Assembly (NCBI RefSeq): GCF_021491375.1
Contig: NZ_JAKEVY010000001.1
Location: 558,001 to 622,000, forward strand
DNA: 64,000 nt
Source: Flavihumibacter fluminis
GTDB taxonomy: Bacteria; Bacteroidota; Bacteroidia; Chitinophagales; Chitinophagaceae
Direction: 5' to 3'
The translations under genes and the position numbers were made by a program. The first letter of the stretch is position 1. Each line of letters opens with the position of its first letter. The notes below the pieces were generated by a model, which made no database searches, was not told the origin of the DNA, and saw nothing but the letters and a program-made list of their open reading frames with translations. This document shows positions 13,211 to 45,647 of this stretch, in pieces.

Positions 13211-15337
13211 TTATTCAAAGAAGAGCTCATCTACAAATACCCAGCCCGGTGTTCCCTTTCCAGGATGCCAGGATGGCAGTACAGGAAGATGTTTTACAAT
13301 GATTTTCAATTGTTTATATTTCTTTTCAGGTAATTTTACAGAATATATCTTTTGATACTGCACCGTATCCATGGTGTGTTGACGGGGTATTTCCTTAGCC
13401 ACCAGCTGTGGTTTTCCATCCTGTTCGGCACCCCAAACCTGGATTTCTTTTGGCGGCATGATATAACTGCCCACTCCTACAAGTGTACTTACTGACAATA
13501 TCTGCAGGTTTCGGGGTTCTTTAAATTCCACCTGAACTTCCAGGTCCTTGTCTTTATAACCCAACCATTTGCCGCTCCTGAAATTTCCATCTCCTTTTAC
13601 TTCATCAATCAGGGTTTGCGCCCCGGAACCTTTGTAAGACGGATCGGGTGCTGTAAGCAATCGAATCGAATCGGGTTTACCACCTGTTCCAAAAAACTGC
13701 CGGCTTACCGTGGCGCTGCTGATCCAGCCTTTTTTGAAGGCCCGGGCCTTCACCTGAGTGCTTTTGGAAATGGTAATGGGACCTTTATACACAGGTGACT
13801 GCAAGCTGTCGGGCTCAGACCCATCCAGTGTATACCGTAAGTCTGCCCCTTGAACAAAATGCTTGAGTTTGAGTTCGAAAGGCTGACTGAAAATCTGCTC
13901 ATCGTTCTGCACAATGGGTGGATTCAATTGAATAAGTATAGTATCACCTGCAAAACCAGTTTCCAGCCGGGTTTCACCCCATGCTTTTTGAAGCGTCGGT
14001 ACATCTTCCGGCTTAACACCGGTGCTCCAGCAATACAGGGATTTTACCGGTATTGGGTTTGAGCTTAAACCAGCAGTTGTTACGGCAGTACCAGACAAAC
14101 TCAGTTCACGCAAAGACGGAAGTTGTTTCAACACCGGCAATGCTTTATCCGTGATGCCACTAAAGGAAAGATTCAGGTTCCGGAGATTGGGAAACTGTTT
14201 AAGCAGTTCCAGGTCTTCATCGGTTACCGGCATCCGGTTCAGGTTTAAATGAACCAATTGTTCTTTTATCTGCAACAGATCTTTTAATTCTTCCGGCTTA
14301 AACTGGCTGGCACCAAAATAATTCACTTCCAGTGCCGGCGATTCTGCCGCAATCGGTTGTACAATCCGGTAGTGAGAATTGAGTTTTTCGATCACGGATT
14401 CAGATGCAGGAGAAAATGCATAAACTGCTTCTTCCCCACTTACAAACAATGAAGCTGTGAGTAAACGAAGACTATCCGTCTCCGGTAAATCTGCCAGTTT
14501 ACCATCCATACTGGAACCTGATTTTATCCAGTGATACAGTATGGCGATCTCCTCGTCGGAAAGCTGAGGTTTACCTTTTGGTGGCATGTGTTCCTTGTGA
14601 TTAAGCGGTAGATGAACACGTTGTAACAACAGTCCGTATTCCTTGGCCGTAGTGTCCCAGAGCAGCCCATTTTTTCCTCCTCTCAACAGTGATGCAGCTG
14701 TTTCCATTACCAGTTCCCCTTTGGCCTTTGAACTGTTATGACAGCTTACACATTTTGCTTCCAGGATGGGTTGGATTACATGATCATATACAATCGCATC
14801 TTCAAATGCAACAGGCGGACTGCTTTCCGTTCCCTTTACCGGAGCCAGCAGGAAATCATCCCCATGCGTTAATACTGCGCCCTGATGACCTGTCAGGATT
14901 AATCCCACTATCATTAAGGCACTGGATACAGATAACGGTATTCTCCGGGATTGCATCCATTTGCGCAAATGATACCAAACCAATGCAAACAGGGATAAAA
15001 ACACGCCACCCCATTTGTGCAGGGTAACGGCGTCGGAACCATATCCTTCTTCCCGGGATAAAATCCAACCAAATAAGGCAGAGAAAACGGTAAGGTTGAG
15101 GGTGCCTAACCATAGCAGGTCCATTCCGTCAGAATTATTCCGGGCCTGTGGCATCCACTCGAAAATCAGCAACAGTAATAACAATACAATAGGAAAATGC
15201 AGCAACAAGGGATGCATTCTTCCGGCTACCTGGAGCCAGGAAGGAATTACTACCCATTGCTCAGCAAGAACAAAAAACAATAAGAGTGTATTGGCTGCAA
15301 AAGCCAGGTTATAGAGGAGAGTTTTCCAGGTACGCAT
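13211..15337 (-). CDS. Cytochrome cassette copy A: membrane subunit with c-haem motif, LRRs and C-terminal binding domains
   Basis: The 708-residue protein has several parts. Four to five transmembrane segments span about 10-155, with histidines at 42, 47, 107, 151 and 158 (HPLLLH; TLHKWGG; TGHQG...LTHG) in a DUF2231-like pattern. A PSCyt1-type cytochrome c domain has CVSCH at 196-200 and a likely distal Met251 (HMPPKG). Short leucine-rich repeats span about 355-440, a chitobiase/FN3-associated domain about 485-545 (YTLDGSEP), and a C-terminal discoidin-like beta domain about 555-708. It overlaps the DUF1501 gene by one base. I infer a membrane anchor that passes electrons between an exported cytochrome and the membrane. 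Confidence 0.72.
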   Translation of the reverse strand: MRTWKTLLYNLAFAANTLLLFFVLAEQWVVIPSWLQVAGRMHPLLLHFPIVLLLLLLIFEWMPQARNNSDGMDLLWLGTLNLTVFSALFGWILSREEGYGSDAVTLHKWGGVFLSLFALVWYHLRKWMQSRRIPLSVSSALMIVGLILTGHQGAVLTHGDDFLLAPVKGTESSPPVAFEDAIVYDHVIQPILEAKCVSCHNSSKAKGELVMETAASLLRGGKNGLLWDTTAKEYGLLLQRVHLPLNHKEHMPPKGKPQLSDEEIAILYHWIKSGSSMDGKLADLPETDSLRLLTASLFVSGEEAVYAFSPASESVIEKLNSHYRIVQPIAAESPALEVNYFGASQFKPEELKDLLQIKEQLVHLNLNRMPVTDEDLELLKQFPNLRNLNLSFSGITDKALPVLKQLPSLRELSLSGTAVTTAGLSSNPIPVKSLYCWSTGVKPEDVPTLQKAWGETRLETGFAGDTILIQLNPPIVQNDEQIFSQPFELKLKHFVQGADLRYTLDGSEPDSLQSPVYKGPITISKSTQVKARAFKKGWISSATVSRQFFGTGGKPDSIRLLTAPDPSYKGSGAQTLIDEVKGDGNFRSGKWLGYKDKDLEVQVEFKEPRNLQILSVSTLVGVGSYIMPPKEIQVWGAEQDGKPQLVAKEIPRQHTMDTVQYQKIYSVKLPEKKYKQLKIIVKHLPVLPSWHPGKGTPGWVFVDELFFE

Positions 15338-16785: not shown

Positions 16786-16787
16786 AA

Positions 16788-19103
16788 CTACGATTTTACG
16801 ATTGCCTCTTCCATATTGTACATGAGATTGATAGTCTTCATTAGTGCCGCCTGTGATACCGGATCCAGGTTCGGATCCTGCGGGTACTCTCCTACTTTAA
16901 GTGTGGACTTTGCATCCAGTTGTCCCGCACGGAATAGTTCCAGCTGTTCTTTGTGATACCTGGTCAGGATCGATAATTCTTCTTTTTCCGGAGTGCGGCA
17001 AAGGATACGACGGAATGCTGTTTCAATATTCGTTTGAGCATCCTTGTTAGTACTTATTAACTTCTGTGCAAATACCCGGGATCCTTCCAGTATAGTCGGA
17101 TCATTCATCATGGCCAGCGCCTGCAGTGGTGTATTGGTTTGTAAACGTGTTACCTCACATTGATCACGATTACTTGCATCAAACAGAATCATGGAAGGTG
17201 GAGGCACTGTTAATTTGATGAATGTGTACAGGCCCCTGCGGTACAATTTCTCGCCCTTATCCTGCTTATAGGTTGCCAGTTCTCCTCTGCCAGAAGTAGC
17301 ACTTTCCCAGAGACCTGCGGGTTGATAGGGTTTAACGCTTGGTCCACCTATTTTTTTAACCAGTAGGCCGCTGGATGACAGTACCAGGTCACGAACAAAC
17401 TCTGCTTTCAACCTGGTTCTGGGAGCATGCGACAGATAGATATTCTCAGGATCTTTTTCCAATGCTTTTTCGCTGACCCTGGCAGATTGGCGGTAGGTAT
17501 TGGAACTAACGATTTTTTTGATGATGTATTTGATATCCCAGTTATGTTCCATGAAATCAACCGCCAGCCAGTCGAGCAGTTCGGGATGTGAGGGAAGTTC
17601 ACCCTGCATACCGAAATCGCCACTGGTTTTTACCAGTCCCCTTCCAAAAAACTCTTGCCAGAGTTGGTTCACGAATACCCGGGCAGTAAGCGGATTGTTT
17701 TTGTCTACTGTCCATTTTGCCAATCCGAGGCGGTTTCTTGGTAATTGCACTGTATCGTATTTCATCACTACCGGCAGTGCCATGGGCTGCACGCGTTCGG
17801 TTGGATGGTCATAAACGCCGCGGTTTAATACATAAGTGGGGCGAATGGTATCCAATTCTCCCATTACGGAAACATACAGTGAACTGGTATCTTCCCGGTT
17901 TATAAAAGACAGGGTCGATTGGAGTTCCTCATTGGTAAGTGTCAGAATGGGATTCTTAGCCGGTTTGGAAATAGAAACATCACCCTCATAACCGACTTCA
18001 TAGGTATTATTAAAGAAGGCAAACAGACTGAAATAATCCTTTTGCGAAATCGGATCATATTTATGATCGTGGCACTGGGCACATTCAGCCGTAAGTCCCA
18101 GTAACCCTTTGGTGTAGGTTTTCGTTTTGTCAAGCACATATTCAATCCGGTATTCTTCCGGGATTACGCCACCTTCTTCCGTGTATTTATGATTCCTGAA
18201 AAAAGCGGTAGCTAAAACCTGTTCCTTTGTTGCATTTGGTAATAAATCGCCCGCCATTTGCCAGGTGACAAACTGATCGTAGGGCATATTTTCATTGAAT
18301 GCTTTAATAACCCAGTCGCGCCAGGGCCATTGCGTCCGGATATTATCATCCTGATAACCATAACTGTCGGCATACCTTGCAATGTCCATCCAGTGAACGG
18401 CCATTTTTTCCCCATATTGGGGAACTGCCAAAAGCGTTTCCACCAGTTTTTCGTACGCATTTTCGGATTTATCATTGAGAAAGCGCTCAATCAGGGCTTC
18501 ATCAGGTGGTAATCCGGTCAAATCCAGGCTCACCCTTTTCAGCAGTCTTTCCTTATCCGCCTCTTCATTCATGGACAGCCCCTTCTCCTTCAGCCGGGCC
18601 AGAATGAAATAATCAATTTCATTTTTTGCAAGAGCTGATTTCACTTTAGGCAAGTCCTGTTTCTCCGGTTTAACAAAAGCCCAGTGTGGTTCATATTCTG
18701 CGCCCTGCTCAATCCATTTTTTCAGAATGGCGATTTCTTCCGTTGACAGGGCCCCGAGATGGGAGTCAGGAGTTGGCATGATGTAATTCGGATCAGTAGA
18801 GATTACCCGTTTGAATACCTCCGATTCCTCAGGTTTACCAGGCACCAATGCAAATGCCCCTTTGGTTTCTTTCAGGGGAGCAAAGGCAAACTCGGGAAGA
18901 TCCAGTCTTAAACCGGCTTCCAGTTTATTTTGATCCGGGCCGTGACACTTAAAACATTTGTCAGACAATATCGGCCTGACATGGTAGTTATAACTAATAT
19001 TACCTGTATCAGAGAGACCTTCTCCGGCACTATTCAGACAGGCAGTAAATGCAATCGCTGCTACAATCAGACTACAAACAGCGACCAAAATTTTTCTCCT
19101 CAT
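16788..19103 (-). CDS. Cytochrome cassette copy A: PSCyt1-DUF1549-DUF1553 dihaem lipoprotein
   Basis: The 771-residue exported lipoprotein has lipobox AFTAC (Cys22). Domains in order: planctomycete cytochrome C (PSCyt1) with CFKCHGP at 50-56 and likely axial Met109 (IMPTPDS); DUF1549 (PSCyt2) at about 160-370 with a second CxxCH, CAQCHDHKYDP, at 341-351; and DUF1553 (PSD1) at about 460-740. The two CxxCH motifs imply two covalent haems. It is first in its operon, with a TAAATTTG box 24 bases upstream. The copy-B paralogue is about 200 residues longer because of an insertion. The family's substrate is not established. I infer an outer-surface or periplasmic redox enzyme. Confidence 0.85.
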   Translation of the reverse strand: MRRKILVAVCSLIVAAIAFTACLNSAGEGLSDTGNISYNYHVRPILSDKCFKCHGPDQNKLEAGLRLDLPEFAFAPLKETKGAFALVPGKPEESEVFKRVISTDPNYIMPTPDSHLGALSTEEIAILKKWIEQGAEYEPHWAFVKPEKQDLPKVKSALAKNEIDYFILARLKEKGLSMNEEADKERLLKRVSLDLTGLPPDEALIERFLNDKSENAYEKLVETLLAVPQYGEKMAVHWMDIARYADSYGYQDDNIRTQWPWRDWVIKAFNENMPYDQFVTWQMAGDLLPNATKEQVLATAFFRNHKYTEEGGVIPEEYRIEYVLDKTKTYTKGLLGLTAECAQCHDHKYDPISQKDYFSLFAFFNNTYEVGYEGDVSISKPAKNPILTLTNEELQSTLSFINREDTSSLYVSVMGELDTIRPTYVLNRGVYDHPTERVQPMALPVVMKYDTVQLPRNRLGLAKWTVDKNNPLTARVFVNQLWQEFFGRGLVKTSGDFGMQGELPSHPELLDWLAVDFMEHNWDIKYIIKKIVSSNTYRQSARVSEKALEKDPENIYLSHAPRTRLKAEFVRDLVLSSSGLLVKKIGGPSVKPYQPAGLWESATSGRGELATYKQDKGEKLYRRGLYTFIKLTVPPPSMILFDASNRDQCEVTRLQTNTPLQALAMMNDPTILEGSRVFAQKLISTNKDAQTNIETAFRRILCRTPEKEELSILTRYHKEQLELFRAGQLDAKSTLKVGEYPQDPNLDPVSQAALMKTINLMYNMEEAIVKS

Positions 19104-19297: not shown

Positions 19298-19420
19298 ATG
19301 AAAGATTGGCTTAGAACCCTGATCGCCGGATATGGTGCATACAAATGGGGCGGCGGCTGCCTTGGTACCATTGTAGTTTTCCTTATTCTCTATTGGTTAC
19401 TTGGTGCAGTAGGATGTTAG
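19298..19420 (+). CDS. Small single-span membrane protein (40 residues)
   Basis: A 40-residue ORF begins MKDWLRTLIAGYGAYKWGGG and continues with one hydrophobic helix at about 21-38, ending AVGC. It is short enough to be missed by gene finders. Its last 7 bases overlap the ATG of the AsmA-like gene, a spacing typical of coupled genes. The gap upstream of it is 194 bases, room for a promoter. The amphipathic N-terminus plus one helix suits an inner-membrane accessory peptide. Function unknown. Confidence 0.55.
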   Translation: MKDWLRTLIAGYGAYKWGGGCLGTIVVFLILYWLLGAVGC

Positions 19421-28101: not shown

Positions 28102-28102
28102 A

Positions 28103-31005: not shown

Positions 31006-31035
31006 GTTGGTTAAGTGCTTGATTTTTGTACTTGG

Positions 31036-31965: not shown

Positions 31966-31983
31966 AACGGTAATGTATAAACG

Positions 31984-33456: not shown

Positions 33457-33468
33457 ATCGTTTTGTTT

Positions 33469-35043
33469 TTAGCTTAAGAAATAATACACCGCAATAGTTG
33501 CCAGCACCAGGAAAATCGAAACCGGCTTGGTGTACTTCCAGGGTTCGATATTCACTTCACCGGTATGCACCGGTTGATACTGATTGGTGTTGGGATAAAA
33601 TTTGGAAATCAGCAACATCACGAGGATATTAAGTACAAATTCAATTCCCCACACATGAATGAAATGAATGTCTACTTTAAGAATGAAGGTGGTCAGTAAA
33701 TAAAAAGCCAGACCTGTAAAGATGGCCACCTTGGCTCCGGTTGCAGAAATCGATTTGATAAAAAATCCACCCAGCAGTACCGAAGCAATCGGAATGAAAA
33801 ATATCCCGTTCAGTTCCTGTAACATCTGGTAGAGTCCCTCCGGTGCTTTTGCCACCATCGGTGCTACAGCAATGCCGAAAACAGCTAACAAAATGGAGGC
33901 CCAACGACCCGTTCTCACCAGCTTCTTTTCATCCGCCGCCGGATTAATTTGACGTTTGTATACACCCAATGTAAAAAGGGTTACTGCACTGTTCAACACT
34001 GCGTTAACCGTACTTAAAACAGTTCCCAATACCACAGCAGCAAAGATGCCGATTAAACTAACCGGCAATACTTTTTTCACCAGCTCTGGATAGATGGTAT
34101 CCTGGTTATTGTAAAGTGAATCATTAAAATAATAAAAACCAATTACACCCGGCAATACAATGATCAGTGGCATGAGAATTTTAAACAAGCCCATGATCAG
34201 AAATCCTTTCTGTGCTTCTTTCAAATTTTTAGCACCCAATGCTCTTTGTACGATCACCTGGTTCATACACCAGAAATAAATCTGGTTGATAACAAGTCCC
34301 GTAAACAGCGTTCCAAAGGGCAAAACAGAATCTGAACTACCAATGGAATTGAATTTTTCCGGTGCATGTTCATACACTTTTTTTAACCCGCCTGCGATAT
34401 CGGTTTCACCAATTTCATAGAGCGCAAAAAAGGGAACTGCCAATCCGCCTATAAACAAACCGATTCCATAGATCATGTCCGAATAGGCAATGGCTTTGAG
34501 TCCACCAAAAATTGCATACACTGAACCCAGCACCCCGATCAGTACAATCATCCACCACATCGATTCTTCTTTGGTAATTCCAAACCGCTCAGATACATCA
34601 AACAGGGTTTCAAAATTGATCGCACCGGTATAGAGTACGATGGGCAGCAGGGTGATGATAAAGGAGAGAATGAGTAAGAGGTTAACAATCGTATGTGTCG
34701 ACTTATCAAATCTCAGTTCCAGGTATTGCGGAATTGTTGTTAAGCCCATCTTCAGGTAACGCGGAATAAAATAAACCGCCCCTAAAACAAGCGCAATCGC
34801 ACTGGTTACTTCCCAGGCCATCACAACAAATCCGTTTTTATAGGAAGAGCCGTTCATACCGATTAGGTGTTCGGTAGAAATATTCGTGAGCAACATGGAG
34901 ATCGCAATCAGCCAGGCTCCAAGGGACCTTCCTCCAAGGAAATAACTGGAGGCAGTTTCAAACTTATCGCTGCGCATTTTGTACCAGCAATAAATTCCCA
35001 CAAACAGGGTAAACAACGCAAACGTTACTATAGCAAGATTCAT
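33469..35043 (-). CDS. Sodium:solute symporter (SLC5 family), likely inositol transporter
   Basis: The 524-residue inner-membrane carrier has about 14 transmembrane helices. SSS-family marks are the N-terminal SSYFLGGRSLGAWLIAIS (33-50), NISTEHLIGMNGSSYKNG (54-71) and the FGGLKAIAYSDMI block near 187-200. It couples substrate uptake to sodium entry. Because it sits inside the inositol operon between iolD and iolA, with gaps of 17 and 12 bases, I infer myo-inositol as substrate. A close sugar symporter cannot be ruled out from sequence alone. Confidence 0.88.
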   Translation of the reverse strand: MNLAIVTFALFTLFVGIYCWYKMRSDKFETASSYFLGGRSLGAWLIAISMLLTNISTEHLIGMNGSSYKNGFVVMAWEVTSAIALVLGAVYFIPRYLKMGLTTIPQYLELRFDKSTHTIVNLLLILSFIITLLPIVLYTGAINFETLFDVSERFGITKEESMWWMIVLIGVLGSVYAIFGGLKAIAYSDMIYGIGLFIGGLAVPFFALYEIGETDIAGGLKKVYEHAPEKFNSIGSSDSVLPFGTLFTGLVINQIYFWCMNQVIVQRALGAKNLKEAQKGFLIMGLFKILMPLIIVLPGVIGFYYFNDSLYNNQDTIYPELVKKVLPVSLIGIFAAVVLGTVLSTVNAVLNSAVTLFTLGVYKRQINPAADEKKLVRTGRWASILLAVFGIAVAPMVAKAPEGLYQMLQELNGIFFIPIASVLLGGFFIKSISATGAKVAIFTGLAFYLLTTFILKVDIHFIHVWGIEFVLNILVMLLISKFYPNTNQYQPVHTGEVNIEPWKYTKPVSIFLVLATIAVYYFLS

Positions 35044-35060
35044 TCGTTGGTATTGGTGGA

Positions 35061-36923
35061 TTAATAAATGCGTTGCTTTGCTTTGTTCTTTTTCAATTTA
35101 TCATAGGCGGATTTCACACTGGCATGCGTAGATACTTCCGCTACAGGAACCTCCCACCAGGCGTAACCACCTACCCGTTGTTCGCGATCCGTTTCAATGT
35201 ATACGACCGTAGTGTTTTTATTTTTCTTCGCCTGGACGAGTGCGGCTTCCAATTCTTTTCGTGTTTGTGCCTTAATAACCGTAGCACCCATGCTGGCTGC
35301 ATTCGCAGCAAGATCTACGGGAAGAATACCACCATCCAACTGGCCGGTTTTTTTGTTGCGGAATTCATACCGGGTTCCGAATCCTTTGGTACCAAGTGAT
35401 TCTGATAAACCACCGATACTCGCATATCCATTGTTGTTAATCAGCACAATAATGAGTTTCATCTGTTCCTGTACAGCCGTTATGATTTCCTGGCTCATCA
35501 TCAGGTAACTGCCGTCGCCCACCATCACATAAACTTCCCGGCTTGGATCGGCCATTTTGATTCCAAGTCCGCCTGCAATCTCATACCCCATACAGGAATA
35601 GCCATATTCCAGGTGAAAGCCTTTGGGGTTGCGGGTTCGCCAGAGTTTGTGTAAATCTCCAGGTAAACTGCCGGCAGCGCATACCATCACATCCTTGTCA
35701 TTGGACAGGGTATTCACTGCACCTATTACTTCACCCTGGCTAATCGGTACGGGATGATTGAGCTTATAAACCGTATTCACCACCTTATCCCATTTTCGGG
35801 CTTCTCGTTCCTGTTTGGCGCGATACGCATCTGAAACCTTATACCGCCTGATGGATTGCAGTAGTTCCTGCAATATTGCTTTCGCATCTCCTACCAGGGG
35901 AATAGCTGCATGTTTGAAAGCATCAAATTCTGTGACGTTAATATTAATAAAGCGAACGTTTGGATTTTGAAAAGCCGATTCAGAAATCGTGGTAAAATCA
36001 CTGTAACGCGTACCAATTCCAATTACAAGATCTGCTTCTGCAGCAGCTGCAATAGCACCGGGAGTGCCGGTAACTCCTGCTGCACCCAGGTTCAGGGGTT
36101 CGGCATAATGAACAGCTCCCTTACCGGCAAAAGTTTCCATTACCGGAATACCGGTTCGGTTGATGAACTCCGTTAGTTCCTTACTGGCTTCGCTGTATAG
36201 CACACCTCCACCTGCAATGATGATGGGTTTGCGTGCTGCTTTAATGGTTTGTAAAGCAGTAGCAAGGGCTCTGGCATCGGGACGGTTACGCTGGATGGTC
36301 CATACTCTTTTAGCAAAGAATTCCACAGGGAAATCAAAGGCTTCCGCCTGCACATCCTGGGGCATACAGAGGGTAACAGCGCCGGTTTCAGTGGGTGAAG
36401 TAAGTACCCGCATCGCTTCAGGCAAGGCAGTTATCAATTGCTCCGGACGATTGATCCGGTCCCAGTAACGGGAAACCGGTTTGAAACAATCATTCACGGA
36501 AATATCCTGGCTCCAGGTTGATTCAAGTTGTTGCAGCACTGGCGCCACATCCCTTTTGGCAAAAATATCGCCGGGTAATAAGAGTACGGGAATTCGGTTA
36601 ATGGTAGCCGTTGCAGCACCGGTGACCATATTGGTGGCACCCGGACCAATAGAGGTAGTACAGACCAATGCACCGATGCGATTTTTCATTTTCGCATAAG
36701 CAATGGCGGTATGCACCATCGCCTGTTCATTGCGGCTTTGAAAATAGGGGAACGATGGATATTGAAGCAGCGCCTGTCCGATACCGGCCACATTACCGTG
36801 ACCAAAAATGCCAAAACAGCCACCAAAAAAAAGCTGCTCCTTTCCATCTCTTTCCACGTATTGATTTTGCAGGAACAGAATCGTAGCCTGCGCCACAGTC
36901 AATCGTTGTGTTTTCTTTGCCAT
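35061..36923 (-). CDS. iolD: 3D-(3,5/4)-trihydroxycyclohexane-1,2-dione acylhydrolase
   Basis: This ThDP-dependent hydrolase opens the cyclohexane ring to give 5-deoxy-glucuronate (third step). The 620 residues have the three-domain ThDP-enzyme layout. The N-terminal PYR domain contains the FFGGCFGIFGHGNVAG block (27-42), which is characteristic of IolD. A central Rossmann domain follows, and the C-terminal PP domain contains the Mg-ThDP motif GDGSYLMM...NNNGYAS. It follows iolC by 18 bases. No truncation or missing cofactor residue was seen. Confidence 0.95.
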   Translation of the reverse strand: MAKKTQRLTVAQATILFLQNQYVERDGKEQLFFGGCFGIFGHGNVAGIGQALLQYPSFPYFQSRNEQAMVHTAIAYAKMKNRIGALVCTTSIGPGATNMVTGAATATINRIPVLLLPGDIFAKRDVAPVLQQLESTWSQDISVNDCFKPVSRYWDRINRPEQLITALPEAMRVLTSPTETGAVTLCMPQDVQAEAFDFPVEFFAKRVWTIQRNRPDARALATALQTIKAARKPIIIAGGGVLYSEASKELTEFINRTGIPVMETFAGKGAVHYAEPLNLGAAGVTGTPGAIAAAAEADLVIGIGTRYSDFTTISESAFQNPNVRFININVTEFDAFKHAAIPLVGDAKAILQELLQSIRRYKVSDAYRAKQEREARKWDKVVNTVYKLNHPVPISQGEVIGAVNTLSNDKDVMVCAAGSLPGDLHKLWRTRNPKGFHLEYGYSCMGYEIAGGLGIKMADPSREVYVMVGDGSYLMMSQEIITAVQEQMKLIIVLINNNGYASIGGLSESLGTKGFGTRYEFRNKKTGQLDGGILPVDLAANAASMGATVIKAQTRKELEAALVQAKKNKNTTVVYIETDREQRVGGYAWWEVPVAEVSTHASVKSAYDKLKKNKAKQRIY

Positions 36924-36941
36924 ATGAGTTCGTTGATCAGT

Positions 36942-37955
36942 TTAATCGGTGAGTCCACCGCGTTCTTCAATCAGTTGCATTACTTCGGATAAAGTGGGCA
37001 TATCATTCGCACAGCCGGGTCTTTGCACCACCAGGGCACCGCAGGCATTACCCAGGCGGCAGGCCTTGGAGATACTCCATCCCTGTACAAATCCATAAAT
37101 GAAGCCGCCCGCAAACGCATCACCAGCGCCCAATACATTCAGCACATCTACCGGATAACCGGGAACATCCTGGGGTTCATTACCCGCCGCATAAATCGTA
37201 ACGCCCTTTGATCCTTTTTTTACAATCAGCACTTTGACCCCTGCATTCAGGATCTGTTTTACGGAAGCCTCTAGGTTGCCTTTCACTTTGGGGGCGGAAA
37301 CCTGCTGGTGTTCAATCACCACATCGTTGATATCCTGAAGGGTAGCTGCCAATACCTCTTCTTCTGTACCAATCGCAATAGTCACTTTAGGCAAAATGGC
37401 ACGAACCATCAGTCCGAAGGAACGGATATCTGTCCACTGATCGGCCCTGAAATCAATATCCAGGATTACTGGCACATCCTTATCATAACCCTGTTCAACT
37501 GCATAAAAAATAGCACTTCGACTCGGTTCTTTACTCATCGCATTTCCCGAAACCTGCACTACTTTAAACTGACCTACATCCGCGGCAGCCACATGATCCA
37601 TGGTGATTTGAATATCTGCACAGTTATCGCGGTAAAAAACCAGCGGGAAACGATCCGGAGGTTCAATACCAAGAATCACAGCACTGGTGCGGGCACCCGG
37701 AATCCGGGGAATATAATCCGTGACAATCTTTTCTTTGTTTAGAAAATTCAAAATGAAATCACCGGTTTTGTCCTGGCCTACTCCGGTTAACAGAGCCACT
37801 TTCAAACCAAGCCGGCCAGCTCCTACTGCGATATTCAAAGGAGAGCCACCTACAAATGCATTAAACCCTTTGATATCAATAAAATCGGCACCGATATCCT
37901 GGGAGTATAAATCAATAGAAGAGCGACCAATGGTCAGTAAATCCAAATTTTTCAT
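36942..37955 (-). CDS. iolC: 5-dehydro-2-deoxygluconokinase
   Basis: This PfkB/ribokinase-family sugar kinase phosphorylates 5-dehydro-2-deoxygluconate at C6 (fifth step). The 337 residues show the substrate motif FVGGSPLNIAVGAGRLG (34-50), IolC-like FYRDNCADIQ, and the ATP-site/catalytic motif NVLGAGDAFAGGF with the base Asp. It lies 11 bases after iolB. The ATG region carries an element repeated downstream of lon. Confidence 0.93.
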   Translation of the reverse strand: MKNLDLLTIGRSSIDLYSQDIGADFIDIKGFNAFVGGSPLNIAVGAGRLGLKVALLTGVGQDKTGDFILNFLNKEKIVTDYIPRIPGARTSAVILGIEPPDRFPLVFYRDNCADIQITMDHVAAADVGQFKVVQVSGNAMSKEPSRSAIFYAVEQGYDKDVPVILDIDFRADQWTDIRSFGLMVRAILPKVTIAIGTEEEVLAATLQDINDVVIEHQQVSAPKVKGNLEASVKQILNAGVKVLIVKKGSKGVTIYAAGNEPQDVPGYPVDVLNVLGAGDAFAGGFIYGFVQGWSISKACRLGNACGALVVQRPGCANDMPTLSEVMQLIEERGGLTD

Positions 37956-37966
37956 GTTGGTTGGTC

Positions 37967-38836
37967 TTAGGGTTGATTGTTCATTTCAGCAGTTACCATG
38001 GGAATTCGCGGATCTCTGAATTTCCAGCTGTCAAATAACCAGCTATGATCCGGATCGGGTGTATTGGCCAGTGACTGATCACTGCCCGCAAGGAAATTCA
38101 GGTAATAACAGTTGTATCCATGCAGTGCTACCACCGGGTGATACCCTTCCGGAACCAGCACGGCATCGTTGTTACCTGCCCGCAGGATTTCATCCAGGGA
38201 ACGATCACTGGTATACACCTGTTGCAATGCAAAACCGCCTGGTTTGTCTATTTTATAAAAATATATTTCTTCGAGATCGGCTTCTTTCAATTCACCGTTT
38301 GCATCCAGGATACGAACATCATGTTTATGCGCCGGAAAGGAACTCCAGTTGCCGGAAGGCGTATACACTTCAACAGCTACCAGTGATGAACAACCGAAAC
38401 CCGGTTCAATCAGACTGTTGATCTGGCGGGTTGCATTTTCTCCTCCCCTGATTTCAATGGCAGCTTCTTCCGGTGTTTTGAATCGGGCCGGAAAATCCGC
38501 TTTGGCTTTCACCCATCCTGCAGCGATGTCGAGTAATTCACTGGTTGCAGTCAATTTGAATTCAGTATGGCGGGGCAGGTAGAGACTATGTGCTATGCCG
38601 CTGAAAACAGATTTGCGTCCATTGGTGGTGGTCCAGGTACCCTGACTGGTTTCCACGGTATAATTACCACTCAGTAAAATAAAGCCATATTCATGTTCAC
38701 CAGTATAACCGGTCCAGCTTTCGCCCTTTTTTAATAAACGAGCTTCCATATTCAGGTGCTCCCAGCCTGCATCCGCAGCCGTTATACGCTGGTACACAGA
38801 TGCCCCTTCCCTGGGATGTATTAATAAGTTGTTCAT
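37967..38836 (-). CDS. iolB: 5-deoxy-glucuronate isomerase
   Basis: This bicupin enzyme isomerises 5-deoxy-glucuronate to 5-dehydro-2-deoxygluconate (fourth step). The 289 residues match IolB length. The C-terminal cupin has the metal-ligand stretch SSFPAHKHD (about 169-177) with the Glu of DLEEIYFYK, and later the His of VPEGYHPVV. Its ATG overlaps the aldolase stop by 4 bases (ATGA), which suggests translational coupling with the preceding gene. Confidence 0.93.
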   Translation of the reverse strand: MNNLLIHPREGASVYQRITAADAGWEHLNMEARLLKKGESWTGYTGEHEYGFILLSGNYTVETSQGTWTTTNGRKSVFSGIAHSLYLPRHTEFKLTATSELLDIAAGWVKAKADFPARFKTPEEAAIEIRGGENATRQINSLIEPGFGCSSLVAVEVYTPSGNWSSFPAHKHDVRILDANGELKEADLEEIYFYKIDKPGGFALQQVYTSDRSLDEILRAGNNDAVLVPEGYHPVVALHGYNCYYLNFLAGSDQSLANTPDPDHSWLFDSWKFRDPRIPMVTAEMNNQP

Positions 38837-39810
38837 TCCTGTCCGATTATGGTGTGTTGGATTTCCTGTATCAAGGGTTGTAAAGCCCGCGACTGTCCGG
38901 CTGCTCCCATCAGTTCAAAACGCTTCAACATGAATGCCTCGAAGGATTGCATGTATTTTCTTCCTGGAACAACTGGATCAATCAGCTCTGGCTGACTGGT
39001 AAAAAATTCCCGGTGATCCCTGGTCCATAATAAACGCAGGTCGGTTGCGATATTCACTTTACAGATACCGAGCTGAATGGCTTTCTTCAGCTCTTCATCT
39101 TTTACACCGGAGGCATCAGGTTTCAATTTGCCACCATACTGATTGATGGCTTTAACCACTTCCGGATCTACGCAGGAACTGCCATGCAGTACTAATGGAA
39201 AGCCGGGCAATAATTCCTGGATTCTTTCAAGTATGTGAAATTGAATCCCTTGTCCGCCACTGAATTTATATGCACCATGACTGGTACCAACTGCTACTGC
39301 AAGAGAATCACAGCCGGAACGTTCCACAAATTCTTTTGCCTGTTGCGGATTCGTGTATTTGGCATCCACTTCTTCCACCGACAAATCATCTTCCACTCCG
39401 CTTAATACACCCAGTTCCGCTTCTACAACAATACCGTGGGTATGCGCTTTTTCAACTACCAACCGGGTTCTTTCAATATTTATATCAAAGGGATCATGTG
39501 AAGCATCAATCATGACAGAGGTATATCCCTGCTCAAGAGCTGCAATTGCATGTTCTTCATTTCCATGATCGAGGTGGATCGCGTATACAACATCCGGGTA
39601 AATATGTCCTGCGGCCTGAATCATCGCCTGCAACATAACAGGATGCGCATAGTTCCTGGCCACAGGAGTTAACTGTACAAGAATGGGGGCTTCTGCACGG
39701 TGAGCAGAAGCAAAGAGTGCCAGCACCTGCTCCATCGTAAATACGTTTACGGCAGGGATCGCATAACGACCATAACAATGTGAATAAAGCAGGCGTGGAG
39801 AAACCAGCAT
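38833..39810 (-). CDS. iolJ: Class II aldolase, probable 6-phospho-5-dehydro-2-deoxygluconate aldolase
   Basis: This Zn-dependent aldolase has 325 residues, with metal ligands in HLDHGN (79-84 region), the Glu of EAELG and His residues of VGTSHGAYKF and LHGSSCV, as in FbaA-like class II enzymes. In the inositol pathway such enzymes split 6-phospho-5-dehydro-2-deoxygluconate into dihydroxyacetone phosphate and malonate semialdehyde. Sequence alone cannot exclude fructose-bisphosphate activity, but as first gene of the operon, coupled to iolB, the IolJ role is most likely. The promoter and operator lie directly upstream. Confidence 0.87.
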   Translation of the reverse strand: MLVSPRLLYSHCYGRYAIPAVNVFTMEQVLALFASAHRAEAPILVQLTPVARNYAHPVMLQAMIQAAGHIYPDVVYAIHLDHGNEEHAIAALEQGYTSVMIDASHDPFDINIERTRLVVEKAHTHGIVVEAELGVLSGVEDDLSVEEVDAKYTNPQQAKEFVERSGCDSLAVAVGTSHGAYKFSGGQGIQFHILERIQELLPGFPLVLHGSSCVDPEVVKAINQYGGKLKPDASGVKDEELKKAIQLGICKVNIATDLRLLWTRDHREFFTSQPELIDPVVPGRKYMQSFEAFMLKRFELMGAAGQSRALQPLIQEIQHTIIGQE

Positions 39811-39836
39811 AACAATCGTTGGAAAGGTTACTAAAT

Positions 39837-39882: not shown

Positions 39883-39890
39883 ATTATTTT

Positions 39891-41282
39891 TTAGTCTGTC
39901 CCGGGCACCTGGCTGTCGAGTGCCAGCACCAGTTCCAGCTTGACCGGCAGGCTGGAGGAATCGATTTTTGTCTGATCCACTTTGCTTTCCCAGAGATAGA
40001 GTTTTTTTAATGCAGGCAAGGATGTCAGCAGGGGTAAACCTGCTTCCGATACCTGGGTTCCATAAAGGTTCAGGTATTCCAGCTTAGTTAATGCCGGCAA
40101 AAAAGACAAACCCTTTTCGCTAATCGGATTCCGGTTCAAATTCAGTTTAAAGAGACTGGTCAATGATGCCAATGCGGGTAGATCCGCATCTTCCAGCTGA
40201 CAGTTTTCCAGTTGCAACCAAACCAGTTGTTGCTTTACGCCAGCCAGTACGGAAAGATCAGGCCTGCTACTCCCCTTTCCGTTGAATTTCACTTCCAGGA
40301 GATTGCCTGTTCGGGTCAGCAGATTAACCTGGTACCCATTATTCAAGAGTGCATCAATGGCTGATGGTTCCGGAGCAGGTGCAATATACCCGGCTACTGC
40401 CTGCTGATCCAATCTGAAAAAACGAACCAGTTCATCCCGCCTTTTCGCATTGGGTGCAAATGCGGTTACCCGTTGCTGTTGATGGGCGCCAGTTTCAATC
40501 CACCATTCCAGGATGGCTTTCTGTTCCTCTGTTAAGGGTGTTTTACCATCTGTTGGCATGAATTCTTTATGATCTTCCGGCAAACTGATCCTGCGATAGA
40601 GTTCACTGGTAGCAAGATTACCTGGCACCACTCCGGCACCGGATTTGCCACCTTTTAAAATGGCAGCGTGACTGGTAAGCAGGTATTCCCCTTTTGTCTT
40701 TTCTTCATTGTGACAACTAGCGCATTTAGCCTGCAGGATAGGCATCACTGCATCTTCAAAGAGATAAGCAGAATCCAGCTCGCGGATTTGCCTTGCAGTA
40801 CTACCTGCTGCTCCCATTGAATCCGAAGCCGCAAAGGGGCTGTATTCCGTCAGGTAAGAACCACCGTGAGTAAGTGCACCGCCCCAGTGGCCTGTAAGGA
40901 TCATTGAACCGATCGCACTAACGATACCGACTAAACGAAGAATAGGAAATGCAGATCGCTGACTTTTCCCCTGTATCAGATACGTTATAAATACTACCAT
41001 TGAAAGTACTGCCACCAGGATGCCGCCATTTTTGTGACGCTCCAGGGTTTGCGATTCATAATCACCTCCGGATGAAAGCAACCAGCCGGTCAGAATGGAT
41101 AGACCACCACTTATAGCTGCCAGTAACCAGAGTATGGATAGTGCTTCTGTTAGCCGGGAGGATTTTTTCTTCCATTGTATCAGATGCAGTACCAACGCGA
41201 AACTCAGCAATCCGATTGGCAGGTGTACAAGTAAGGGGTGAAAGCGCCCGATAAATAAGGAGAATTCAGAATTCAATTGCAT
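39891..41282 (-). CDS. Cytochrome cassette copy B: membrane subunit with c-haem motif and LRRs
   Basis: The 463-residue paralogue of the copy-A membrane subunit has four to five transmembrane segments over about 10-140. Histidines at 15, 20, 83, 132 and 139 (HPLLVH; RHKNGG; TGHWG...LTHG) match those of copy A in spacing. A PSCyt1-type cytochrome follows with CASCH at 187-191 and likely axial Met242 (FMPTDG). Leucine-rich repeats run from about 325 to 440. It ends there and lacks the roughly 250-residue chitobiase/discoidin-like C-terminus of copy A. It has no cleaved signal; the first helix starts near residue 10. It is last in the cassette, 80 bases before the inositol operon. Confidence 0.72.
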   Translation of the reverse strand: MQLNSEFSLFIGRFHPLLVHLPIGLLSFALVLHLIQWKKKSSRLTEALSILWLLAAISGGLSILTGWLLSSGGDYESQTLERHKNGGILVAVLSMVVFITYLIQGKSQRSAFPILRLVGIVSAIGSMILTGHWGGALTHGGSYLTEYSPFAASDSMGAAGSTARQIRELDSAYLFEDAVMPILQAKCASCHNEEKTKGEYLLTSHAAILKGGKSGAGVVPGNLATSELYRRISLPEDHKEFMPTDGKTPLTEEQKAILEWWIETGAHQQQRVTAFAPNAKRRDELVRFFRLDQQAVAGYIAPAPEPSAIDALLNNGYQVNLLTRTGNLLEVKFNGKGSSRPDLSVLAGVKQQLVWLQLENCQLEDADLPALASLTSLFKLNLNRNPISEKGLSFLPALTKLEYLNLYGTQVSEAGLPLLTSLPALKKLYLWESKVDQTKIDSSSLPVKLELVLALDSQVPGTD

Positions 41283-41293
41283 AAACTTTTTAA

Positions 41294-42748
41294 TCAGGCC
41301 AATATGTCTTTTACGATATTTCCATGAACATCGGTTAACCGGAAATCGCGGCCACCAAAACGGAAAGTCAGTTGTTTGTGATCAATGCCAAGCAGGTGCA
41401 ACATAGTAGCATGCAGATCGTGAATAGTGACAGGCTTATCTATTACCCGATACCCATAATCATCGGTAGTACCATAGATCGTTCCGCCTTTGATACCTGC
41501 TCCCGCCATCCACATGCTGAAAGCTGACGGATTGTGATCGCGGCCATCAGTTCCCTGTGCGAATGGTGTTCTGCCAAACTCTCCGGAAAATACCACCAGG
41601 GTTTCATCCAGCAAACCACGCATTTTCAAATCCTTTAACAAGCCGGCGATTGGCTGATCCACCGCATGGGCATTTCGTTCATGTCCATCTTTCAGATTAG
41701 AGTGCTGGTCCCAGCGATCTGCATTGCCTCCAATATCCGGACAGGTTAATTCAATAAACCGCACACCCCGTTCAACCAGCCTCCTGGCCAACAAACATTG
41801 CGCGGCATAATTGCGGGTATTGGGATCCGGTGAATCCAATCCGTATAATTTTTTAGTAGCGGCTGACTCTTCTTTGAATTCTGTCAATTCGGGTATGGAA
41901 GACTGCATCTTATAGGCCAGCTCATAATTGGAGATGGCTGCTTCGATCGCATCATTGCCTTCCAGGCTTTGTAATAAATGAGCATCCCGCTTTTTCAGGA
42001 ATGCCAATTTTTCTTCCTGGATACCGGCTATGGAATCCAGTGGTTTGATATTCGCAAGGGGCTCTGTTCCTGCTCTCAACAGTGAAGCCTGGTAAGCTGC
42101 AGGAAGAAATCCGTTTTTGAAATTATCCAGTCCGCCCGGAGGAATCAATCCACCATCCAGCACAACATAACCCGGCAGATTACTATTTTCCGATCCTAGA
42201 CCATAGTTCACCCAGGCTCCCATGCTGGGCCGGCCTTGCAGACCGCTTCCCGTATGCAAAAAATAGTTCGCATTGGTATGTTCCGGAAAATTGGAAACCA
42301 TGGAGCGAACCAGCGCTAAATCATCCGCGCAACTACCAATATGTGGAAAAAGTTCACTGATCTCCATTCCGGATTCGCCATAGCGATTAAACTCCCAGGG
42401 ACTTTTCAGGATCTTGCCAGTATCGCCAAACTGTGTGGCATCCATTTTAAATTTTTTGGCCGGGTCTTCTCCGTTTTCTTTTGTCAGTCGTGGTTTGGGA
42501 TCAAAGGAATCCACCTGGGAAATCCCGCCATCCATGTACAGAAAAATAATATTCTTTGCCCTGGGAACAAAACCCGGAGGAATGGGGCCGGCACCCAGGT
42601 GATCCAGTAACTGGTTCTTTCCCGCTTCCACACCGGAACAGGACGGAAGCAGGCTGCCAAACATACCCAGCATGGCCAGCGATCCAAATCCGCATTTGCA
42701 GATGCCTAACATTTCCCGGCGACTAAGCGGTCGTTGAAACTGATTCAT
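41294..42748 (-). CDS. Cytochrome cassette copy B: DUF1501 protein with Tat-like signal
   Basis: The 484-residue paralogue of the copy-A DUF1501 protein has a twin-arginine start (LSRREMLGICKCG, 8-20) followed by a hydrophobic stretch and SCSG, so it may be a Tat-exported lipoprotein. Family blocks are DGGISQVDSFDPKP, the FSGEFGRTPFAQ segment and GRDHNPSAF. The gene lies 1 base after the PSCyt1 lipoprotein gene and 11 bases before the membrane subunit, the same order as in copy A. Activity unknown. The fold is of the sulfatase/alkaline-phosphatase type by family knowledge. Confidence 0.85.
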   Translation of the reverse strand: MNQFQRPLSRREMLGICKCGFGSLAMLGMFGSLLPSCSGVEAGKNQLLDHLGAGPIPPGFVPRAKNIIFLYMDGGISQVDSFDPKPRLTKENGEDPAKKFKMDATQFGDTGKILKSPWEFNRYGESGMEISELFPHIGSCADDLALVRSMVSNFPEHTNANYFLHTGSGLQGRPSMGAWVNYGLGSENSNLPGYVVLDGGLIPPGGLDNFKNGFLPAAYQASLLRAGTEPLANIKPLDSIAGIQEEKLAFLKKRDAHLLQSLEGNDAIEAAISNYELAYKMQSSIPELTEFKEESAATKKLYGLDSPDPNTRNYAAQCLLARRLVERGVRFIELTCPDIGGNADRWDQHSNLKDGHERNAHAVDQPIAGLLKDLKMRGLLDETLVVFSGEFGRTPFAQGTDGRDHNPSAFSMWMAGAGIKGGTIYGTTDDYGYRVIDKPVTIHDLHATMLHLLGIDHKQLTFRFGGRDFRLTDVHGNIVKDILA

Positions 42749-42749
42749 A

Positions 42750-45647
42750 TCAATTGAGATAAATGAATTCCTTCAGGTTAAAAATGGTATGAGCAAAATC
42801 CTTCCACACAGTTCGGCTGTTCTTTTCCGTTAGTCTGGTCAGCAATTGATTCGCTTCCCTGATTTCATCTCCTGTTGCGGCCCTGCCAAAACAATTCTTA
42901 TAGAGCCATTGAATTTTTTCCTCCCGGGTCTTCAATCCCTTTTTCTCCAATCGCTCTGCCAATCGCGCCGCTTCCTGCATAACAAAGGGATCATTCATCA
43001 GGATAAGCGATTGCGCCGGCACATTGGTCACTTCTCTTTTACCAAAACTGGTAAAGGGAATGGGACGATCAAAACTGGTCAGCATGGGATCCAGGAAATT
43101 CCGGCGAACCTCCAGGTAAACAGTTCTTCTGCCGCTGCCATCCAGTGGACCAGATTGAGCCGGTTTACCTCGTCCATTCATAAAGGAAGTAATATGCTGA
43201 GGAACGGGAGGACCATACATGGAAGTATCCAACCTGCCAGAAACAGCCAGCATCGCATCACGTATCGCCTCCGCTTCCAATCGCCGCAAAGGGAAATGAG
43301 ATAACCAGGTATTAGCCGGATCTTTTTCCTTGCTGTCATTTACCGGTACGGTGGAGCGTTGAAACGTTTCCGATAATACGATCGTACGGATCAATTGTTT
43401 AACAGAATAATTATGCTGTTTAAAGGATAGACTCAGGTAATCCAGTAATGCAGGATGTGATGGAAGTTTTCCCTGCAATCCAAAATTATCAACAGTTTCC
43501 ACAATTCCTTTTCCAAAGAGATGATGCCATATCCTGTTTACCATTACGCGGGTAGTAAGGGGATTGTTTTCTTCCAGCAAGGCTTCTGCCAATTGAAGGC
43601 GTCCGCTACCGGCTACATCCAGGTTGTTGGATCGAGTACCCAGGGCCGTTAGAAAAGTTCGGGGTACTTTTTCTGCTGACAACTCCTGGTAATTGCCACG
43701 TATGAAAACCGGACTGTTTTTACCAAAACCGTCAGTAACACCATAGAAGAACCGGAGAGAGTCGCGCAGAGCAAGCCGTAACCGGGATTCCTGCTCCAGA
43801 AGCGATTGTATGGAAGGATCAACTTTTAGCTTTTTGATCTGGCGATTCAATGCGGAAACTACCAGCCCCTTGTTGGCTGGTTCAATCCATTTTTTATTGT
43901 ACGCAATAGCATAACGGGCATCCACATACGAATCAGGCCGCTGGACGAAAACATGATTTTCATAAACACCCGGCAGCAGTTCAATATACGCCTTATGGCC
44001 TTTCCATTGTCCTACATCAAATACATATTGTTTCCATTTGGTATCGCTTACCAGTTGTTCGATATTTCCATAAATCGGCCAGCGAATCAATTGGAAATTA
44101 TCAATCACAATCCGGATCACGGACTCTCTTCCTGCTGCTTCCACACCAATAAAATTGGTTGATATGGTAAAGTCTGGCGAACGAAGCGCCCCATAGATAC
44201 CAAGCGCCGTTTTCCTGCTGCTGGCCATTCCTTCCCGGATACCCATGAATTGGTATTGGTCATTAAATACGGGATCACCAAGAGTGGTCCTGCTACTAAA
44301 AGCCAGTCCATCTGCTTTCCAGCCTTCCAGATCGGTACCGGAAAAATTACCCAACACCTGGTATCCGGAATCAGCAGGAGATGCAGGCTGCTGGTTATTC
44401 GTTTGCAGCAGCACGTTAGCAGTGCCCGATTCCTGCAGCTGCTGGTGCGCCCATTGCCTTACCTGTTCCTGGATTTGTTGCAGGTTTTGGAGTATTTGTA
44501 CTTTTGAGCCCTGGTTAACCGGTTGGGGACTGAACCGGGTGCCTTCCATAACGCCGTAAAAAGAATAATAATCTTTTGCTGAAATCGGATCAAACTTATG
44601 ATCATGACAACGGGCACAACTAATGGTAAGGCCCAGGAAAGCCTTACCTGTTACATCTATCATGTTATCAATGCGATCCGCTTCATCTTTTCGGATATCA
44701 ACCGGGCTGTGCGAGCCTTCCGCCATCGTTAAAAAAGCAGTTCCAAGGATGGATTCGTTTTCATTACCCGGACCGACTCTTGGTTTTGGCAATAAATCGC
44801 CGGCCAGTTGTTCTCTGACCAGTTGATCAAAAGGAATATCTGAATTAAAGGCCCGGATCAAATAATCGCGATAGCGCCAGACCTCCTGAATCTGATAATC
44901 AAATTCATGTCCGCGCGTTTCCGCATAACGGGCAATATCCATCCAATGGCGGGCCCATCTCTCTCCGAAACGGGGGGATTGCAAATAATAATCCACCATC
45001 TTTACGTAGGCATCCTCGTTCGTTTCAGTCAAAAAAAGCTGCTGCTCTTTTTCGGTTGGTGGTAATCCGGTTAGGAGAAAGGATACCCTGCGCAGGAGTG
45101 ATTCGGGATTGGCTCGCGGAGCGGATTTGATTCCACGTTCATCCAGTTCTTGCTGAATGAAAAAATCAACCGCATTTTCTTTATATTTTTTTTCAAGCAG
45201 GCTGCTGTCAGGGGGAATAAAAGCCCAGTGAGGATCATAGGTGGCGCCCTGGTCGATCCACTTCTCCAGGATAGCCATTTCCTGTTGTGTAAGTTTCAAG
45301 TTGGATTCGGGTGTTGGCATTACCTGGTCCGGGTCTTTGTGATAAATGCGTTCCACCACCATGCTATTGGCAGCATGGCCGGGATCAATCGCACGACCGC
45401 CATTTTTCAATAAGGCTGTTGCCCCTTCATAGGTATCAAGCCGAAGGTTTGCTTTCCGGCTGCTTTCATCCGGACCATGACATAGATAACATTTTTGAAC
45501 GAGGATGGGCTTTACATGGTAGTTAAAATCAACGGTATCCGGAATACCGGCTGAAGCATCCGTTCCGCATCTGCTAAACAGTGCAATGGAGATAAACAAT
45601 CCTGCTACTACCCAGGTTGATTTTTGCCGAAAAAACCGGAAGCCCAT
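42750..45647 (-). CDS. Cytochrome cassette copy B: PSCyt1-DUF1549-DUF1553 dihaem protein with inserted domain
   Basis: The 965-residue exported protein probably has Cys27 (ALFSRC) as a lipidation site. PSCyt1 carries CYLCHGP at 53-59 and axial-type Met110 (VMPTPES). DUF1549 carries the second haem motif CARCHDHKFDP at 344-354. DUF1553 fills the C-terminal third. Between them, about residues 375-600, is an insertion absent from copy A. It contains a beta-rich segment (NFSGTDLEGWKADG onward) that looks like a carbohydrate-binding or laminin-G-like module. TTTG lies 4 bases before its ATG. It is first in cassette B, and tandem repeats lie about 90 bases upstream. Confidence 0.83.
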   Translation of the reverse strand: MGFRFFRQKSTWVVAGLFISIALFSRCGTDASAGIPDTVDFNYHVKPILVQKCYLCHGPDESSRKANLRLDTYEGATALLKNGGRAIDPGHAANSMVVERIYHKDPDQVMPTPESNLKLTQQEMAILEKWIDQGATYDPHWAFIPPDSSLLEKKYKENAVDFFIQQELDERGIKSAPRANPESLLRRVSFLLTGLPPTEKEQQLFLTETNEDAYVKMVDYYLQSPRFGERWARHWMDIARYAETRGHEFDYQIQEVWRYRDYLIRAFNSDIPFDQLVREQLAGDLLPKPRVGPGNENESILGTAFLTMAEGSHSPVDIRKDEADRIDNMIDVTGKAFLGLTISCARCHDHKFDPISAKDYYSFYGVMEGTRFSPQPVNQGSKVQILQNLQQIQEQVRQWAHQQLQESGTANVLLQTNNQQPASPADSGYQVLGNFSGTDLEGWKADGLAFSSRTTLGDPVFNDQYQFMGIREGMASSRKTALGIYGALRSPDFTISTNFIGVEAAGRESVIRIVIDNFQLIRWPIYGNIEQLVSDTKWKQYVFDVGQWKGHKAYIELLPGVYENHVFVQRPDSYVDARYAIAYNKKWIEPANKGLVVSALNRQIKKLKVDPSIQSLLEQESRLRLALRDSLRFFYGVTDGFGKNSPVFIRGNYQELSAEKVPRTFLTALGTRSNNLDVAGSGRLQLAEALLEENNPLTTRVMVNRIWHHLFGKGIVETVDNFGLQGKLPSHPALLDYLSLSFKQHNYSVKQLIRTIVLSETFQRSTVPVNDSKEKDPANTWLSHFPLRRLEAEAIRDAMLAVSGRLDTSMYGPPVPQHITSFMNGRGKPAQSGPLDGSGRRTVYLEVRRNFLDPMLTSFDRPIPFTSFGKREVTNVPAQSLILMNDPFVMQEAARLAERLEKKGLKTREEKIQWLYKNCFGRAATGDEIREANQLLTRLTEKNSRTVWKDFAHTIFNLKEFIYLN

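Follow-up and report, generated by a model that had tools for sequence, protein, structure and literature searches.

In Planctomycetes and Verrucomicrobia, PSCyt2 genes lie beside a family of genes of unknown function, DUF1501 genes occur in genomic clusters (PMC5615132; Kamneva 2012 cited in PMC4452313), and R. baltica carries 41 copies of each of two PSD1/PSCyt domains (PMC2754498). A redox or carbohydrate role is already proposed for genes of the Planctomycetes-Verrucomicrobia-Chlamydiae (PVC) group (PMC5615132, PMC4452313, PMC2754498), and the accessible portions of the literature on the clusters (e.g., PMC5615132) do not name PSD1 and DUF1501 together as partners. No reaction assigned to PSD1/PSCyt proteins was found in the literature searched. 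For periplasmic sugar oxidation, the 3-keto-disaccharide hydrolase family (DUF1080, with LacABC) has been proposed to act on periplasmic 3-keto sugars (PMC9007349), and published work describes, for GlycDH with TIM-barrel eliminase/hydratase, one TIM barrel that cleaves 3-keto-glycosides and another thought to hydrate the product (PMC10628242). Here we describe a three-gene cassette of PSD1, DUF1501 and a membrane protein in Flavihumibacter fluminis, two copies of which (A and B) lie in a 64,000-nucleotide stretch, the window (C11:558001-622000), of a 4.71-Mb genome in 41 contigs.

The cassette encodes, in order, a PSCyt1-PSCyt2-PSD1 protein, a DUF1501 protein and a DUF2231-PSCyt1-LRR (leucine-rich repeat) membrane protein; in Pfam, PSCyt2 is DUF1549 and PSD1 is DUF1553. 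A preliminary description of this DNA had reported two copies with the same gene order and strand, and both the open reading frames (ORFs) and Pfam agree with it, coordinates included. The junctions, said there to span -1 to 11 bases, measured 2 and -1 bases in copy A and 1 and 11 bases in copy B. The two copies are old paralogues whose DUF1501 proteins are 43% identical, and a sibling genome (G008) keeps both together with the intervening genes. Among the matches listed, the best named one to the copy A DUF1501 was that of Flavipsychrobacter sp. MAG-374, at 98% identity. Both window copies are real, but two is not the number for the genome, which holds five full triplets (C11 A, C11 B, C21, C32 and C36) and, at C11:437-441 kb, a two-gene pair whose first protein reads DUF2231-PSCyt1-PSCyt2-PSD1, i.e., genes 3 and 1 fused. 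In total the genome gave 7 DUF1501, 6 PSD1 and 11 PSCyt1 matches, and its seventh DUF1501 stands behind a DUF1800 gene. The fused cassette (L028:4452-11719) is one run of fused protein, DUF1501, an 881-aa (amino acid) PVC-type haem protein and a 3-keto-disaccharide hydrolase, and the run is kept in the sibling (L053).

Conservation of the gene order was assessed in 40 genomes of the family, which contained 34 DUF1501 matches above 230 bits; 30 of these were classed as strong by our own cut of 470 bits. Rather than occurring apart from its partners, DUF1501 had both of them in the same order and on the same strand in 27 of the 30 strong cases, scored as a PSCyt1 ORF upstream plus another downstream, as in the triplet. 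This shows that the order is not due to chance. The exceptions were a gene with a 3.2-kb N run at the place of PSD1, a gene at a contig end, and one solitary gene (G013:C64), while the remaining 4 of the 34 had an upstream PSCyt1 ORF of 807-834 aa and none downstream, as in the fused type. In G013, PSD1 was seen on C82 (L190), DUF1501 on C64 (L188), and a TIM barrel with a membrane gene on C54 (L191); these are probably the pieces of one type C cassette scattered over three contigs. Across 45 complete triplets the trees of PSD1 and DUF1501 agreed closely (r 0.95) and those with the membrane protein moderately (0.645 and 0.611), against at most 0.354 with permuted labels, a correlation that mixes species history with co-evolution. 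The view of each copy as one coupled unit, a co-inherited set of extracytoplasmic haem proteins, is thus borne out by the conserved order and the concordant PSD1 and DUF1501 trees, and there is strong support for a cassette that is real, conserved, co-inherited and extracytoplasmic.

The preliminary description had called for a search for the three-gene order across Bacteroidota and Planctomycetes. In a scan of GTDB contigs that listed the best 80 loci by similarity to the copy A DUF1501, which is not a fair sample, a PSD1 gene preceded DUF1501 by no more than 1 kb in 38 of 40 Bacteroidota loci and in 29 of 39 others, the latter being by record title from Verrucomicrobia, Planctomycetes, Acidobacteria and more. 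Among the same listed matches, the membrane gene followed DUF1501 in 20 of the 35 Bacteroidota loci with room for it and in none of the 25 such loci from elsewhere; in 2 further Bacteroidota loci it stood ahead of PSD1, and all 23 ORFs with a real membrane-protein score came from Bacteroidota. From these counts, the PSD1-DUF1501 pair is general, found in both groups, and the membrane gene was apparently added in Bacteroidota.

Four cassette types were set by the PSD1 and DUF1501 clusters plus protein lengths in the 45 triplets. In type A (24 triplets) the PSD1 protein has 767-801 aa and the membrane protein 682-729 aa, and the family profile of the latter resembles hexosaminidase at its C-terminus; the PSD1 proteins of types B (3 triplets), C (10) and D (8, two PSD1 clusters joined) have 965-972, 898-949 and 1064-1094 aa. 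The extra length sits between PSCyt2 and PSD1 (region 375-646 in copy B). The type D insert matched the lectin-like Laminin_G_3 in both proteins scanned, the type C insert gave a sub-threshold CBM_6 match in one of two, and the type B insert received no Pfam name in two. Type-specific domains, suspected from the two window copies, are therefore present as four types with different inserts, some of them carbohydrate-binding-like.

In many relatives a further gene, the fourth, is inserted after DUF1501 and ahead of the membrane gene; it is absent from the genome's five triplets and from the sibling's four. The slot was occupied by an NHL/SGL-like propeller in 10 of 24 type A and 4 of 8 type D triplets, by an AP_endonuc_2 TIM barrel in 7 of 10 of type C, and by a Mala_s_1-like propeller in one of type B; among the 45, the TIM barrel was confined to type C and NHL to types A and D. 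An N-terminal RRxF was found in 6 of 7 NHL and 8 of 8 TIM proteins of the profile sets, and the type B propeller begins with a plain signal-like sequence. E167, D195, H198 and E274 are conserved in the eight aligned TIM barrels, a pattern to be expected if they form a metal site. In two genomes the TIM barrel gene is separated from the membrane gene by a 117-aa ORF (L044:11592-11945 and L045:7037-7390).

The DUF1501 protein has a twin-arginine signal and the shared fold of the alkaline phosphatase superfamily, but it lacks the usual metal ligands (an Asp after strand 1 and an Asp-His/Asn pair), and a Ser/Thr/Cys nucleophile is not kept throughout. As mapped by sequence alignment only, strand 1 ends in Gln or Met at position 67 in 83 of 83 aligned sequences, the position of the NPP/sulfatase Asp-His pair is Glu-Phe (384-385) in all 83, and the nucleophile place is Ser in 80 and Ala in the two sequences of the fused type; in the DUF1800 branch it is Asp in all 30 rows. 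In other members of the superfamily these positions hold the metal ligands and the nucleophile. The altered site itself is invariant (H157, WD-x-H, EFGR and D-H), and H157, D341, H343, D403 and H404 are kept in 30 of 30 rows (29 genes) of DUF1800-paired DUF1501. DUF1501, earlier grouped into a redox system, thus belongs to no known family of redox proteins and has instead an alkaline-phosphatase-superfamily fold with an altered active site.

The PSD1 protein has two CxxCH motifs in the translations of each copy; in copy A they lie at 50-54 and 341-345 and are kept in 66 of 69 and 69 of 69 aligned relatives. The AF2 (AlphaFold2) model of this protein is confident (pLDDT 92, pTM 0.90), and its first domain is a cytochrome c that matches FoxE both by structure and by sequence (E 2.5e-8). 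Profile comparison of PSD1 with DUF1800 by HHalign gave alignments of some 90-110 columns that scored 47.8-49.5 (E 5.1e-5 to 1.1e-4). Forty column shuffles scored at most 27.5, but 2 of 20 block shuffles, in which 12-column pieces were kept, reached 50.2 and 52.0. When six PSD1 proteins were scanned with PF08811 (DUF1800) at E<=0.05, B1 alone matched, over the region corresponding to the profile alignment, and none of the six passed the cut-off of 26.1 bits (B1, 14.2 bits, E 0.025). In the 40 family genomes, 52 of 52 weaker DUF1501 rows, two of them pieces of one gene in G018, stand directly behind a DUF1800 gene. Because of the profile similarity and this pairing, PSD1 and DUF1800 may be members of a single superfamily of DUF1501 partners, one branch of which has gained or lost haem.

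The membrane protein of each copy has one CxxCH motif. In copy B, hydropathy segments were found at 17-35, 47-65, 85-103 and 111-129, the loops after segments 1 and 3 are rich in Lys/Arg, and His 15, 20, 83, 132 and 139 with CxxCH 187-191 are invariant in 25 of 25 aligned sequences (copy B numbering). This suggests, by a topology judged by eye and less clear for copy A in the same scan, that both termini of the copy B protein are outside. The predicted topology would place the five histidines at the outer face beside the c-haem domain, and a redox centre may therefore reside at this cluster in DUF2231. Pfam calls DUF2231 in copy B only, and the five key histidines of copy A align in the same region. 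For copy A, Pfam finds PSCyt1 and Fn3_assoc/CHB_HEX_C_1 with a sub-threshold LRR match, and the type A family profile (501-715) aligns with the C-terminal part of beta-hexosaminidase 6q63 at E 1.1e-38.

Features of the window. Positions are those of the 64,000-nucleotide stretch.
Feature	Coordinates	Strand	Basis
Copy A gene 1: exported PSCyt1-PSCyt2-PSD1 di-haem protein, 771 aa, type A, without insert	16788..19103	-	Pfam PF07635/PF07583/PF07587
Copy A gene 2: Tat-exported DUF1501, alkaline-phosphatase-superfamily fold	15337..16785	-	
Copy A gene 3: membrane protein, PSCyt1, weak LRR, C-terminal hexosaminidase-like region	13211..15337	-	Pfam
Copy B gene 1: exported PSCyt1-PSCyt2-PSD1 di-haem protein, 965 aa, type B	42750..45647	-	Pfam
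Copy B gene 2: Tat-exported DUF1501	41294..42748	-	PF07394, 474 bits
Copy B gene 3: DUF2231 four-helix membrane domain, PSCyt1, LRR	39891..41282	-	Pfam
iol-type operon: class II aldolase, KduI/IolB, PfkB, TPP enzyme (IolD-like), SSF symporter, Aldedh, IolE-like, IolG	29986..39810	-	Pfam
LacI-family regulator (LacI + Peripla_BP), after iol operon	28942..29961	-	Pfam
Perfect 8-4-8 LacI-operator-like palindrome TTACTAAA-ACGA-TTTAGTAA	39828..39847		between copy B and iol operon

Between copies A and B lie a 569-aa ORF, GH43, GH78, a TonB receptor and a DUF481 protein, followed by the LacI and iol genes. The 569-aa ORF (19345-21054, + strand) is divergent from copy A and 73% identical in the sibling, and in Pfam and NCBIfam it matched nothing at E<=0.001. 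A D-serine dehydratase/BhcC-like protein (45770-46888) is encoded immediately upstream of copy B and on its strand, in the sibling as well. The iol operon is downstream of copy B on the same strand after an 80-base gap, an order kept in the sibling; IolG passed TIGR04380 (434 bits, cut-off 355), and the IolE-like protein was under the TIGR04379 cut-off (203 of 290 bits). The palindrome TTACTAAAACGATTTAGTAA is identical in the sibling, recurs nowhere else in the window even when up to 3 mismatches are allowed, and was matched by 0 in 100 shuffles. Its position between copy B and iol and its identity in the sibling argue that the iol operon probably has its own switch, for which the LacI-family regulator is the candidate reader, and since it separates copy B from iol, the link of copy B to inositol is weak. 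Elsewhere, 296 genomes of the phylum gave 10 further copy B-like DUF1501 matches (67-78% identity), with PSD1 directly upstream in all 10 and the membrane gene in one. Four of these loci (L151, L152, L154 and L155) continue with SDR, sugar ABC transporter and TIM barrel genes, the domains being verified in L152 and for the L151 TIM barrel; that of L152 is nearest IolO (129 of 300 bits cut-off). As for the catabolic linkage proposed earlier, some sugar-catabolic genes do adjoin the cassettes: the commonest families in a set of 105 co-directional neighbours include GH29 (5), SIS (4), GH95, SDR and Gfo/Idh (3 each) and KDPG aldolase and AP_endonuc_2 (2 each). This set fits carbohydrate use, but thinly.

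It is quite possible, and we propose it tentatively, that the cassette encodes an extracytoplasmic complex that acts on sugars or their derivatives and is electrically connected to the inner membrane. DUF1501 with PSD1 would bind and convert a sugar or polyol, and electrons would flow from the haems of PSD1 via the membrane protein's c-haem to the periplasmic-face histidine cluster of DUF2231, which could hold a b-haem or another redox centre, and on to the quinone pool. Where present, the fourth exported enzyme, a metal-type TIM barrel or an NHL/SGL-like propeller, would process the product, e.g., a keto sugar or lactone, and the five cassettes of the genome would be versions for different substrates. 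There is moderate support for the link to sugars, with carbohydrate-binding-like parts in the type D PSD1 insert, weakly in one type C insert, and in the C-terminal part of the membrane protein of type A; an oxidation that delivers electrons to quinone is plausible but unproven. Of the extracytoplasmic redox system for a sugar or polyol that was first suggested, the extracytoplasmic haem unit stands and a sugar or polyol substrate is plausible, but inositol oxidation is not borne out. In a more specific form, which we consider unlikely, the alkaline-phosphatase fold of DUF1501 would have become that of a metal-dependent sugar oxidoreductase, or of a lyase that works together with one, and its site would pass electrons through the di-haem protein and DUF2231 to quinone. 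This would be a new class of periplasmic respiratory dehydrogenase, with the haem-free DUF1800-DUF1501 pairs as the ancestral or uncoupled form. Several observations weigh against the proposed sugar-converting complex. Pfam found no FAD (flavin), NAD (nicotinamide), PQQ (pyrroloquinoline quinone) or Mo (molybdenum) domain in the six cassette proteins of the window, which counts against the redox enzyme supposed earlier, none of the parts can be recognised as a dehydrogenase, and the haem-b and quinone step has the histidine positions as its sole basis. The remainder of the PSD1 protein had no Foldseek match at E<=0.001, a search that tests mostly helical folds poorly, and DUF1501 belongs to a superfamily of hydrolases and transferases. 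Membrane-protein clusters partly cut across the types (e.g., L039 and L072), the commonest neighbour family accounts for 5 of 105 without a background control, and the genome's cassettes outside the window have no consistent catabolic neighbours. Finally, no CxxCH occurs in 30 DUF1800 ORFs read, nor in a gene near the genome's own DUF1800-DUF1501 pair (L029:5538-8162). As the paired DUF1501 proteins nevertheless keep their site residues, the core reaction may need no haem; these haem-free pairs suggest that haem is an add-on to the DUF1501 system.

Such a haem-independent reaction would fit a non-redox core, in which DUF1501 and its helical partner (PSD1 or DUF1800) form an extracytoplasmic glycan-modifying transferase, esterase or lyase and the PSD1 haems serve sensing, maturation or a secondary step. 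We regard this as somewhat doubtful, since the usual alkaline phosphatase ligands are altered in all 83 sequences and the nucleophile varies between branches, the nearly invariant haem motifs of PSD1 are hard to square with an accessory role, and the two high-scoring block shuffles leave some doubt about the PSD1-DUF1800 similarity itself. A haem-dependent but non-catabolic role, with PSD1 as an isomerase (in the manner of fatty acid cis/trans isomerase, CTI), a peroxidase or an envelope-stress or redox-balance protein and sugar genes nearby by chance, is improbable given the lectin- and hexosaminidase-like regions and the exported TIM barrel or propeller in slot 4. It does draw on weak Pfam matches to CTI, below the cut-off, in two PSD1 proteins of type C (E 6.7e-4 and 0.0029), on the housekeeping-like genes, read from N-termini, that adjoin the genome's own cassettes in C21, C32 and C36, and on an R. 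baltica PSD1/PSC2 gene that has been suggested as the target of an extracytoplasmic function (ECF) factor up-regulated under three stresses (PMC2754498). For copy B alone, a periplasmic first step of inositol use, in which inositol is oxidised or released from a conjugate and then taken up by the neighbouring symporter, would agree with the conserved adjacency to iol and with the SDR, transporter and TIM barrel genes of the four related loci. We think this very improbable: the palindrome intervenes between copy B and iol and none precedes copy B at up to 3 mismatches, BLAST to the window genes labelled no iol gene in the 14-20 kb that surround the 10 copy B-like genes elsewhere, and IolG is cytoplasmic and needs no prior oxidation.

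The sugar-directed complex that we favour can be set beside four described systems. With the alkaline phosphatase superfamily (NPP, PafA and sulfatases) DUF1501 has its fold in common, but its metal-ligand and nucleophile positions are altered. As in the periplasmic 3-keto-glycoside pathway, a 3-keto-disaccharide hydrolase lies beside the fused cassette and type C has an exported xylose-isomerase-like TIM barrel; in contrast, the six cassette proteins have no domain of a GMC/FAD or Gfo/Idh (NAD) glycoside 3-dehydrogenase. The DUF1800-DUF1501 pair (PMC5122149) likewise has a Tat-exported DUF1501 with the same site residues, and DUF1800 is distantly similar to PSD1 but, in the ORFs read, lacks the haem motifs of the di-haem protein. 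The four types with their inserts, the fourth slot, the altered alkaline phosphatase site, the PSD1-DUF1800 link and the five invariant histidines are new here; in the literature searched, we found no description of the types, the slot, the altered site, the PSD1-DUF1800 link or the membrane gene. The Bacteroidota version offers a possible membrane exit for electrons, an exchangeable slot whose enzyme may process the product and a haem-free sister pair, and, if the proposal is true, a respiratory entry point for glycan-derived sugars. The PVC pair comes closest: the PSD1 gene stands directly before DUF1501 on the same strand in both copies, and its protein has two c-haem motifs here as well. 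It differs in that the Bacteroidota cassette adds the DUF2231-PSCyt1-LRR membrane gene, in both window copies, and, in relatives, the exchangeable fourth exported gene; and where planctomycetes have PSD1/PSCyt proteins in dozens of copies, the cassettes here are few and whole.
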